Source: an uncultured Oscillospiraceae bacterium
GTDB taxonomy: Bacteria; Bacillota; Clostridia; Oscillospirales; Oscillospiraceae
DNA: 32,341 bases
Direction: 5' to 3'
Assembly: GCA_947626785.1 (NCBI GenBank)
Contig: CANQTO010000034.1
Location: 1 to 32,341 of the forward strand
Part shown: one piece after another, positions 2,655-32,310 of the stretch
How the letters are laid out: the number at the start of each line of letters is the position of its first letter
Position numbering within the stretch: position 1 is the first letter of the stretch
Program-made: the position numbers and the translations under genes
Notes under the pieces: model-generated
What the model saw: the letters and a program-made list of their open reading frames with translations, nothing else
Told to the model about the DNA's origin: nothing
The model's database searches: none

Positions 2655-2683
2655 TTTACTTCTTTGCCAAAGTATGATACAAT
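2655..2683 (+). promoter_or_regulatory. Candidate promoter for the prfA transcript
   Basis: TTTACT (2655-2660, 4 of 6 matches to TTGACA) and TACAAT (2678-2683, 5 of 6 to TATAAT) are separated by exactly 17 nt. Transcription would begin near 2690, five or so nt before the first arm of the structured element, so the whole element would lie in the prfA leader. Motif-based inference. Confidence 0.5.
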
Positions 2684-2694
2684 CCTCTGGCCTA

Positions 2695-2970
2695 GGGTGC
2701 CGGGGATCGAACCCGAGTCGCTTCACAGGGACTCTTTCCGGCGCTTTTCGGCTTGTCGTCGTTGCCTTGCGTCAGCAAGGCTGCCTCCTCCGCACCGAAA
2801 ATCACTCGGAAATTTCTCCCTGTGAAGTGCGAAGCAGTTTCTGGCGAGCAGATTTTTTCTCAGGCAAGGAAAAGCCCGCAGGGAATACTTTGTGTATTTT
2901 CAAGGGCTTTGACACAGCATGAGGGAAAATCTGCCGCCAGAAACCGGCTCTGGTTCGATCCCCGGCACCC
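2695..2970 (+). repeat. 276-nt highly structured element in the prfA leader, with tRNA T-arm-like inverted ends
   Basis: The outer arms 2695-2713 and 2952-2970 are perfect 19-bp inverted repeats; the right arm reads GGTTCGATCCCCGGCACCC, like a tRNA T-loop and acceptor 3' strand. Inside are two nested hairpins. The first pairs 2721-2731 with 2817-2827 (11 bp), 2735-2740 with 2807-2812, 2745-2751 with 2795-2801, and is capped by a 7-bp stem with loop GTCA (2764-2781). The second pairs 2837-2846 with 2935-2944 (10 bp), 2848-2856 with 2926-2934, 2871-2877 with 2904-2910 and 2884-2888 with 2894-2898. The prfA ribosome binding site begins 1-3 nt after the right arm. No conserved coding capacity is apparent. 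It is either a structured leader RNA, a stable small RNA, or a MITE-like intergenic repeat. Confidence 0.75.
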
Positions 2971-2983
2971 AAAGGAGCGCGCC

Positions 2984-4057
2984 ATGTTTGAGAGACTGAA
3001 AACTCTGAAAAATCAATATGAGGAGCTCTGCCGCCGGATGGAGGAGCCGGAGACCTACGCGGACCCCGCCCTCTACGCCAAATGCGACAAGGAGGCCCGG
3101 GAGTTGGCCCCCTTAGTGGAGGCCTATGACGCCTATGAGCGGGCCGGGGCGGCTATGCGCTCCGCTCTGGAGCTGATGGAGGATGCGGAGCTGAAGGAGC
3201 TGGCCCAGGAGGAGTTCCAGGAGGCCAAAGCCGAAAAGGAGGCCCTGGAGGAGAAGATCCGGCTCCTGCTGCTGCCTAAGGACCCGCGGGATGAGAAGAA
3301 CGTCATCATGGAGATCCGGGGCGGCGTCGGCGGCGAGGAGGGGATGCTCTTCGCGGCGGACCTGTTTCGGATGTATATGCTGTACGCCGAGTCCCAGGGC
3401 TGGAAGGTGGATGTGGCGAACATCAGCCAGACGGAGCTGGGCGGTATCAAGGAGGTCAGCTTCGTCATCGAGGGCGCGGGGGCGTATTCCCGGCTGAAAT
3501 TCGAGGCCGGAGGGCACCGGGTCCAGCGGGTGCCGGTGACCGAGTCCGGCGGCCGTATCCACACCTCGGCGGCCACGGTGGCCGTGCTGCCCCAGGCCGA
3601 GGAGCTGGACTTCAAGCTGGACGAAAGGGACTTGAAGATCGACACCTTCCGCTCCTCCGGTGCGGGCGGGCAGCACGTCAACAAGACGGAGAGCGCCATC
3701 CGCATCACCCACCTGCCCACGGGGACGGTGGTGGAGTGCCAGGACGAGCGCAGCCAATATAAGAATAAGGACCGGGCCATGCAGATCCTGCGCTCCAAGC
3801 TCTATGAGGCAGAGCAGGCCCGGCAGGCCGCGGCCGTGGCCGCGGTGCGGAAGAGCCAGGTGGGCTCCGGGGACCGGAGCGGCCGCATCCGCACCTATAA
3901 TTTCCCCCAGAACCGGGTGACCGACCACCGCCTGAGCGGAGACAACAAGAATTTCAACATCGCCGGGATCATGAGCGGGGACTTAGACCCGCTGATCGAC
4001 GCGCTGGTCACGGCAGACCAGGCAAGGCGGCTGACAGAGCAGACGGAAGAGGCATGA
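2984..4057 (+). CDS. prfA: Peptide chain release factor 1
   Basis: RF1 recognises UAG and UAA in the ribosomal A site and triggers hydrolysis of the finished peptide. The 357-residue product has the normal length. The catalytic GGQ lies in SSGAGGQHVNKTESAIR, and the codon-reading tripeptide is PVT within RVQRVPVTES, the PxT form of RF1 and not the SPF form of RF2. The start at 2984 is set by AGGAG at 2973-2977; an open frame runs much further upstream but only through the structured leader. The stop overlaps the next start (ATGA). The methyltransferase gene prmC, often next to prfA, is not here. Confidence 0.97.
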   Translation: MFERLKTLKNQYEELCRRMEEPETYADPALYAKCDKEARELAPLVEAYDAYERAGAAMRSALELMEDAELKELAQEEFQEAKAEKEALEEKIRLLLLPKDPRDEKNVIMEIRGGVGGEEGMLFAADLFRMYMLYAESQGWKVDVANISQTELGGIKEVSFVIEGAGAYSRLKFEAGGHRVQRVPVTESGGRIHTSAATVAVLPQAEELDFKLDERDLKIDTFRSSGAGGQHVNKTESAIRITHLPTGTVVECQDERSQYKNKDRAMQILRSKLYEAEQARQAAAVAAVRKSQVGSGDRSGRIRTYNFPQNRVTDHRLSGDNKNFNIAGIMSGDLDPLIDALVTADQARRLTEQTEEA

Positions 4058-5262
4058 AGACAGAGATCATTACCGCGGACCTACAGGCCGCGGCAGATAT
4101 ACTGACAGAGGGCGGCCTGGTGGCTGTCCCCACCGAGACGGTGTACGGCCTGGCCGGGAACGGCCTGAATGAGGCGGCGGTGGAGGAGATCTACCGGGTC
4201 AAGGGCCGGCCGGAGGTCAAGGCCCTGTCCCTGATGGTCCCCGGCCCGGAGGCCATGGAGCAGTACTGCGAGGATGTGCCCCAGGCGGCGAAGGACCTGG
4301 CAAAGCGCTTCTGGCCCGGCCCGCTGACCATCATTTTAAAGTCCAAGCCCCTGGTCCCGGAGATCGTCCGGGCGGGTGGGGCGACGGTGGGCCTGCGCTG
4401 CCCGGACCATGAACTGACGCTGAGGCTGCTGCGCCTGTGCGCGCTGCCTCTGGCGGCCCCCTCCGCTAACCCCTCCGGCGCTCCCAGCCCCAAGACGGCA
4501 GGGGAGGTGCTGGCGTATTTTGACGGGCAGATCGGCGGCGTCATAGACGGCGGGCCCTGCGGGCTGGGGCGGGAGTCCACCATCCTGGACATGAGCCGCG
4601 CCCCCTACCGCATCCTGCGCCAGGGCGCTCTGCCGGAGGCGGACATCGGCGCCGCCCTGACGGAGCGGCTGACAGTGATCGGCGTCACCGGCGGCAGCGG
4701 CAGCGGCAAGACCACGGCTCTGGAGGCCCTGAAGGCCCGGGGGGCCCTGGTCCTGGACTGCGACGCCGTTTACCACGAACTGCTGGAGAGCAGCGAACCG
4801 CTGCTAAGGCAAATCGAGGCGAGCTTCCCCGGCGTGGTGAAGGACGGGGTGCTGGACCGGAAGGCCCTGGGGGCCCGGGTCTTTGCCGATGAGGAGAAGC
4901 TCCTGCGCCTGAACGCCATCACCCACCGGCAGGTGGGAATGGAGGTGGAACGGCGTCTGGAGGCCTGGGCCTGGGCCGGCGGGGAGCTGGCCGCGGTGGA
5001 CGCCATCGGCCTTTTCGAGGGCGGCCTGGACAAACACTGCGCCGCCGTGATCGGCGTCACCGCCCCGGAGGAGGAGCGGGTCCGGCGCATCATGGCCAGG
5101 GACGGCATCAGCCGGGATTACGCCCTGCTGCGCATCCGGGCCCAGAAGCCGGACAGCTATTTTGAAGAGCATTGCAGTCACCTCGCGCGAAACGATGGCG
5201 GCCGGACTCAATTTGCAGATAAAATAAACCGGATCATACAGGAGGTACTGGGGAATGGATGA
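4054..5262 (+). CDS. Fused threonylcarbamoyl-AMP synthase / dephospho-CoA kinase
   Basis: Residues 1 to about 205 are a TsaC/YrdC domain, which makes threonylcarbamoyl-AMP from threonine, bicarbonate and ATP for tRNA t6A37. Its marks are PTETVYGLAG, KGRPEVKALSLMV and PSANPSG. Residues about 208-402 are a complete dephospho-CoA kinase (CoaE, last step of CoA synthesis): P-loop GGSGSGKTT at about 213-221, LDCDAVYHELL, and a C-terminal ERVRRIMARDGIS segment. The reading frame is continuous across the junction with almost no linker. The Sua5 C-terminal domain is absent. The gene overlaps prfA by 4 nt and the aminopeptidase by 8 nt. An in-frame GTG at 4675 preceded by GGAG could also yield free CoaE of 195 residues. 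Each domain call is firm; joint function is inference. Confidence 0.9.
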   Translation: MKTEIITADLQAAADILTEGGLVAVPTETVYGLAGNGLNEAAVEEIYRVKGRPEVKALSLMVPGPEAMEQYCEDVPQAAKDLAKRFWPGPLTIILKSKPLVPEIVRAGGATVGLRCPDHELTLRLLRLCALPLAAPSANPSGAPSPKTAGEVLAYFDGQIGGVIDGGPCGLGRESTILDMSRAPYRILRQGALPEADIGAALTERLTVIGVTGGSGSGKTTALEALKARGALVLDCDAVYHELLESSEPLLRQIEASFPGVVKDGVLDRKALGARVFADEEKLLRLNAITHRQVGMEVERRLEAWAWAGGELAAVDAIGLFEGGLDKHCAAVIGVTAPEEERVRRIMARDGISRDYALLRIRAQKPDSYFEEHCSHLARNDGGRTQFADKINRIIQEVLGNG

Positions 5263-32234: not shown

Positions 32235-32310
32235 GCTGGAATAGCTCAGTCGGTAGAGCAGCTGATTCGTAATCAGCAGGTCGCGTGTTCGAGTCACGTT
32301 TCCAGCTCCA
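32235..32310 (+). tRNA. tRNA-Thr (anticodon CGT)
   Basis: A full cloverleaf of 76 nt with encoded CCA: acceptor GCTGGAA/TTCCAGC, D stem GCTC/GAGC, anticodon stem GCTGA/TCAGC with loop TTCGTAA, T stem GCGTG/CACGT with loop TTCGAGT, discriminator T. The anticodon CGT reads ACG (Thr). The 31 nt after it include GCGG-AATA-CCGC, possibly the start of a terminator that is cut by the window end. Confidence 0.97.

Follow-up and report, generated by a model that had tools for sequence, protein, structure and literature searches.

A probable mobile repeat of nested palindromes between the promoter and the ribosome binding site of prfA in an uncultured Oscillospiraceae bacterium

The prfA locus and the element upstream of the gene

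The window, that is, the whole stretch of DNA analysed here (32,341 nucleotides; contig CANQTO010000034.1 of assembly GCA_947626785.1, from an uncultured Oscillospiraceae bacterium), carries the gene for peptide chain release factor 1, prfA, and a 276-nt element (2695–2970) that lies between the prfA promoter and the prfA ribosome binding site. The features of the locus are as follows.

2655..2683, plus strand: native prfA promoter, with −35 TTTACT at 2655–2660, −10 TACAAT at 2678–2683 and a spacing of 17
2693..2694, unstranded: TA at the left end of the element; the right end has AA (2971–2972), where many other copies have TA
2695..2723, unstranded: left arm of the outer palindrome (terminal inverted repeat), 29 nt, 90% complementary to 2942–2970
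2719..2829 (limits approximate), unstranded: inner hairpin module 1 (hp1), family consensus TTTTCGGCGCTTTT / AAAATCACTCGAAAA
2828..2836 (limits approximate), unstranded: mini hairpin with GCGAAGC between hp1 and hp2; copies differ in the loop
2837..2945, plus strand: inner hairpin module 2 (hp2), covariance model R1, 114.8 bits, the window copy itself being part of that model's alignment
2942..2970, unstranded: right arm of the outer palindrome, in which GTTCGATCC (2953–2961) resembles a tRNA T-loop
2973..2977, plus strand: prfA ribosome binding site AGGAG, two bases past the end of the element
2984..4057, plus strand: prfA, peptide chain release factor 1 (ATG at 2984; TIGR00019, 497 bits, E = 2.5e-149)

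The promoter-like pair, the element, its two multi-segment inner hairpins and the identity of the downstream gene had been proposed in a sequence-only reading of this DNA, and all were borne out, with coordinates correct to within a few bases. The element starts 12 nt downstream of the −10 hexamer and is closed by a perfect 19-bp stem (2695–2713 with 2952–2970), confirmed both by complementarity and by the predicted fold. As that reading had it, the stem ends at the ribosome binding site, with AGGAG starting two bases later. Folding of 2684–2983 as RNA gave a minimum free energy of −168.6 kcal/mol, far more stable than dinucleotide shuffles of the same segment (−105.2 ± 5.6 kcal/mol, n = 200), none of which reached the native value (0/200; z = −11.4). 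Besides the two large hairpins, the interior holds the tiny GCGAAGC hairpin. In the window copy, hp1 and hp2 face each other in inverted orientation, and unpaired GCAG (2878–2881) and CAAG (2901–2904) in hp2 flank GAATACTTTGTGTATT (2883–2898). The order GCAG–stem-loop–CAA can be read by eye in hp2 and in the reverse complement of hp1, and it recurs in both modules of several other copies but not of all (for example, not L069). The sequence-only reading had named no leader or riboswitch family of this form before prfA. In the Rfam scan, no family was found at the element at gathering score, the sole match in the whole window being a tRNA (32235–32307), and a lax threshold added four sub-threshold matches at the element, the best with E = 0.21.

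Open frames cross the element. One of them runs on into prfA (2753–4057, a 434-aa ORF from TTG 2753), and automatic start calling could therefore extend prfA upstream through the repeat. Directly after prfA, one frame (4054–5262) encodes an L-threonylcarbamoyladenylate synthase (Sua5/TsaC) fused to a dephospho-CoA kinase (CoaE).

Empty sites, dispersed copies and their ends

Of 40 genomes, the source genome included, 35 gave a prfA match, and the loci of 29 of the 34 relatives were examined. The element was upstream of prfA in none of these 29, two of which hold just 179 and 103 nt of upstream sequence; BLAST matches there were short (longest 48 nt, best E = 0.003). Among 19 same-genus loci, 13 have the promoter pattern TTTACW-N17-TAnnnT upstream of prfA. 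In the nearest relative (G018), whose prfA protein is 87% identical to that of the window, the element-free upstream region reads TTTACA-N17-TAAAAT-CCTCTGGCC-CTCAAGGAGACAAGCC-ATG, and its window counterpart reads TTTACT-N17-TACAAT-CCTCTGGCC-(TA + element)-AAAGGAGCGCGCC-ATG. Because the element-free locus has the same promoter and ribosome binding site, both belong natively to prfA, and the element came to lie between them by insertion. The empty site of G018 has diverged from the window sequence, and a duplicated target is not readable there; the same genome carries one full and one partial copy of the element at other places.

Searched with the prfA element region, the source genome yielded 21 matches at E ≤ 0.01, a number that includes self-matches and single arms. 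Near-full copies lie at C82 (278 nt, 95%), C1 (251 nt, 95%) and C48 (250 nt, 91%), and a copy at C12 is split by an insert. Those at C54 and C14 (L006, L007) are mosaics, which have hp2 in common with the prfA element and carry another outer palindrome. The apical motif GAATACTTTGTGTATT occurs 17 times in this genome (16 exact; reversed control, 0), and some of these occurrences are members of single-hairpin families with other ends. We also observed that the two mosaics have a different first hairpin, whose apex resembles the hp2 core in inverted form, and that the sequence beside the C82 copy (L002) has, by eye, the look of a group II intron at its 5′ end.

Relatives of the element extend well beyond the source genome. 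At E ≤ 1e-5, 36 of 99 genomes matched, in 5 of 33 genera (source genome included); copy numbers in this search are lower bounds, with about 7 candidates scored per genome. A scan of GTDB contigs for an exact pattern returned 43 stretches, the titles of which name Oscillospiraceae, Ruminococcaceae, Clostridiales, Eubacteriales or uncultured Clostridia and, in one case, Lachnospiraceae, and many of which refer to Lapin (rabbit), goat or roe deer samples. The hp2 covariance model (R1, built from 34 copies) was then applied across the class at E ≤ 1e-6, with E-values that are rough, and matched 53 of 291 genomes drawn from Clostridia, in 37 of 181 genera (source genome included); under the strict filters applied, the other 238 gave no match. 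It found 12 places in the source genome and several copies in many matched genomes, the per-genome counts being lower bounds at 13 (13 candidates scored), where 7 genomes stand. In seven hp2 loci from outside the order (GC 0.32–0.44), GCAG was retained in 7/7, and the CAAG position read CAAG in four and CGAG in three; four of the seven, in which the core motif was found by script, also show hp1-like and arm sequences by eye. The retained GCAG and the hp1-like and arm sequences mark these distant loci as relatives, and not as any long hairpin. The conserved unpaired bases inside hp2 are the main feature that a passive MITE interior would not explain. Carriage of the element by phages or plasmids was considered and rejected, as no viral contig had an exact match to two element patterns, and plasmid and phage records yielded one partial relative each (a Vescimonas replicon and a putative phage scaffold).

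The ends of the copies are sharp. Four copies in genome G061, the query L129 and its matches at three other places, were reported as 100% identical, and all four are cut off at the element ends to within one base, with unmatched flanks; judged from these sequences, a relative of the element has apparently moved recently in this genome. Element-free counterparts exist for both flanks of L129, that of the left flank elsewhere in G061 (85% over 162 nt) and that of the right flank in G013 (74% over 355 columns), but both have diverged, so a target duplication is not readable in them. When TA is counted within 3 nt of an element end, 41 of the 55 full-length copies have it at the left, 38 at the right and 32 at both; these are raw counts with no chance level attached. 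TA could be part of the palindrome itself, the prfA copy has it on the left side only, and no duplication longer than TA recurs at the element ends among the copies compared. When copies were excised in silico, 19 of 24 junctions lay in an open frame of at least 150 codons, against 96% of 120 control positions; this DNA is GC-rich, which makes the test uninformative on how many copies are intergenic. At one locus (L228, G021:C53), the left TA of a relative may, by eye, belong to the TAG stop codon of the gene upstream, and the right end adjoins the apparent ribosome binding site of the next gene. The MITE-like repeat that the sequence-only reading had named as its alternative has thus gained an empty site, scattered copies and sharp ends, but the target-site duplication that it had asked for was not established.

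Pairing on both strands and modular forms

Of 77 related loci, 60 have a clear outer stem and 17 have none. Five of the 60 fall outside 265–295 nt, which leaves 55 copies, and removal of L164 by hand and thinning of copies at least 92% alike left an alignment of 34 with a mean column identity of 67%. RNAalifold predicted 80 pairs for these copies, 62 of them with at least one double change. In this structure 95.3% of cells are paired, against 73.0% when shuffled and at most 48.4% with slid partners; sliding the partners also lowers the covariation score, from 0.580 to at most 0.117. The structure derives from the same alignment and is favoured over its slid versions, but the gap is large nevertheless. 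The outer arms differ between copies yet co-vary.

A structure that is maintained as RNA should tolerate G-U pairs on its own strand more than A-C. When the alignment was folded on both strands, the consensus energies were −107.3 and −103.5 kcal/mol, and the 74 pairs predicted on both contained 58 G-U and 55 A-C cells. The pairs predicted on a single strand (6 on plus, 5 on minus) are rich in the G-U of that strand, and the totals are alike (plus, 124 G-U and 58 A-C; minus, 118 G-U and 67 A-C), cells being counted singly and not as independent events. The equality of G-U and A-C is evidence against selection on one RNA strand, and the pairing in this family shows no strand preference. Covariation, which had been suggested as a check for a leader RNA, proved very strong; as it came with neither linkage to prfA nor strand preference, it did not discriminate.

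The outer arm also occurs with other contents. Allowing up to three mismatches, the arm AGSTGACGGGAGTCGAACC was found 41, 19, 19 and 33 times in four rabbit-gut genomes, against 2, 4, 1 and 1 for the reversed control, and some of these matches are not elements (the recurrent L303 match is a tRNA-Gly(TCC) gene). Twenty stretches from these genomes, picked mostly by arm spacing and thus giving no frequencies, contain bare palindromes of 30–50 nt (L289–L293, L295, L304, L306), a single example with one hairpin (L307), three with two hairpins (L294, L305, L308) and larger ones in which hp1 encloses further hairpins (L296–L301), as well as two tRNA-like matches (L302, L303). Among singleton arms, several fold back over an even shorter length, about 31 nt in the shortest (L326). 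Bare, one-, two- and three-hairpin forms have the same kind of ends. Separately, single-hairpin relatives with other outer arms (AGGAAACGCTGAATAAATCG..., TACTRATnnn...) and TA beside many ends were observed at L010, L011, L015–L018 and L078, and one genome (G103) holds 25 arm matches of such relatives, a number of them forming 161-nt units.

Interpretation and comparison with known systems

Taken together, the dispersal, the sharp ends, the empty sites, the near-identical copies in G061, the modular build and the co-varying arms without strand preference point to a mobile repeat, and we consider it very probable that 2695–2970 is one copy of a non-autonomous, MITE- or REP-like nested-palindrome DNA repeat of Clostridia. 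In this model, the element would have landed next to a TA in the stretch that separates the native prfA promoter from the ribosome binding site. The outer palindrome would be recognised in trans by a transposase or recombinase, which would join it to TA targets, and hairpin modules inside the palindrome would be lost, gained or swapped between families. Arm complementarity may be kept at the DNA level, through templated quasi-palindrome correction and/or recognition of the folded DNA. On the other side of the balance stand three observations: the profiles and stretches searched gave no autonomous element or partner enzyme; a TA duplication is not proven, the prfA copy having a left TA only and both empty sites having diverged; and GCAG persists in all seven distant loci, which a passive MITE interior would not need.

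An incidental effect of such an insertion would be a prfA mRNA that begins with a hairpin of about 276 nt, ending two bases before AGGAG, and this may change mRNA stability or translation. The inserted repeat could since have been co-opted in this species as a 5′ UTR stabiliser or translational damper of prfA. The element would indeed form the 5′ end of the mRNA if the promoter at 2655–2683 is used, but among the loci examined it sits at prfA in the source genome only, and other copies lie beside other genes; we regard co-option as unlikely, though it is the best placed of the alternatives.

Less probable again is a REP/REPIN-like element that an HUH (Y1) enzyme would process in the form of folded single-stranded DNA. 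The two inverted hairpin modules, GCAG before the apical stem and kept in all seven distant hp2 loci, the lack of a long target duplication and a Y1_Tnp profile match in 6 of 11 high-copy genomes are consistent with it. Against it, Y1_Tnp gave no match in the source genome (99% complete) or in G061 (73% complete), the genome with the identical copies; GCAG lies deep inside the element; and the outer ends, read by eye, carry no GTAG-type tag. The DDE_3 (IS630) profile matched 2 of the 11 high-copy genomes and not the source genome. A scan of 16 transposase loci for the element gave one weak hp2-like match (L350), and neither DDE_3 nor Y1_Tnp was retained as a mobilising partner, both lacking a match in the source genome and nothing convincing appearing at the 16 loci. 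The L350 match itself is a hairpin at 332–415 (24.9 bits); its contig also carries a Y1 transposase, and a gene nearby looks, by eye, like rpsJ. In 20 stretches around mostly unpaired arms from four genomes, no partner arm with up to four mismatches lay beyond about 300 nt, and no autonomous element was seen there or in a reading of four unpaired arms; a few arms with five mismatches lie 1.5–2.6 kb away.

We also weighed, and think improbable to a similar or slightly greater degree, that the T-arm and 3′ acceptor strand of a tRNA such as tRNA-Gly gave rise to the outer palindrome, or that selection made the palindrome resemble them, and that tRNA-related machinery moves it, for example an integrase that targets tRNA genes. 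In 31 outer arms, some still related after a crude redundancy filter, mean T-arm scores were 11.3/14 (right) and 11.1/14 (left), against 8.5 for shuffled arms. T-stem pairing in the right arms was 111/155, against 88.9 under permutation (reached in 0/5000), and in the left arms 103, against 92.3 (reached in 52/5000), values that permutation overstates because the arms are partly related. By eye, L305 and tRNA-Gly(TCC) disagree at 2 of 21 positions, and of four arms read from other orders, three contain GTTCAA. Several families lack the likeness (L006, L007, Vescimonas, L015–L018), and the best match of an outer arm to 32 distinct own tRNAs, taken from 30 of 41 matches and their neighbours, was 20/24, much of which is the universal T-loop. 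Among the rabbit-gut arm matches with three mismatches, L303 is a tRNA-Gly gene and L302 was not called as a tRNA, and the loci scanned at unpaired arms (6 and 12) held no tRNA. Origin from a particular own tRNA gained no support, the match being no better than the shared T-loop explains; the T-loop likeness of many outer arms is kept as a lead.

The favoured proposal of the sequence-only reading, a dedicated cis-acting prfA leader (attenuator, riboswitch or autoregulatory) or a processed stable RNA, drew on the location between promoter and ribosome binding site, the very stable fold and the strong covariation, but is now highly improbable given 0/29 relatives' prfA loci with the element, homologues at many other loci, empty sites, wobble pairs without strand preference and no Rfam match at gathering score.

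Beyond the mobile repeat at prfA, we tentatively suggest, as a conjecture that may well prove wrong, a class-wide Clostridia superfamily of modular mobile elements, in which hairpins are nested in a T-arm-like outer palindrome and conserved unpaired motifs sit in co-varying stems, on either strand. The folded DNA would be recognised by a host or mobile enzyme, and the elements would persist as evolving per-genome populations that grow by hairpins inside hairpins. The reading as a mobile repeat removes a candidate riboswitch-like leader, and it indicates that a strong fold with covariation, the usual evidence of RNA function, can arise from a mobile palindrome. Counting G-U against A-C on both strands is a cheap control for such palindrome-driven covariation. 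The element family is both widespread and structurally elaborate; our literature search found no such repeats for Oscillospiraceae or Clostridia, and the MITE and REP papers it found treat other groups.

Like MITEs, the element is short, dispersed and has no recognisable gene, with terminal inverted repeats, sharp ends and TA beside many of them. Unlike MITEs, its outer arms vary by subfamily rather than fit the ends of one transposase, and it holds nested conserved hairpins, with no partner IS found in the stretches and profiles searched. MITEs derived from IS630/Tc1-mariner elements have TA at their ends; TA ends are common to both, but DDE_3 occurs in just 2 of the 11 element genomes searched and not in the source genome. 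REP/REPIN sequences with their RAYT (TnpA-REP) share with the element short palindromes, inverted module pairs, bare and compound forms and within-genome families. REPs characteristically have GTAG at their end (PMC3733652), whereas the element has its GCAG in the interior and measures 276 nt, and the source genome has no Y1_Tnp match. Mitochondrial repetitive or double-hairpin elements are potentially mobile, form single, double or multiple hairpins and show complementary substitutions between copies (PMC2800124); by description rather than by sequence, they share the mobile multi-hairpin form with the element, but they are organellar and not bacterial. By form, then, the element is a variant of dispersed palindromic and MITE-like repeats, and the class-wide, structured and nested family is the part of interest.
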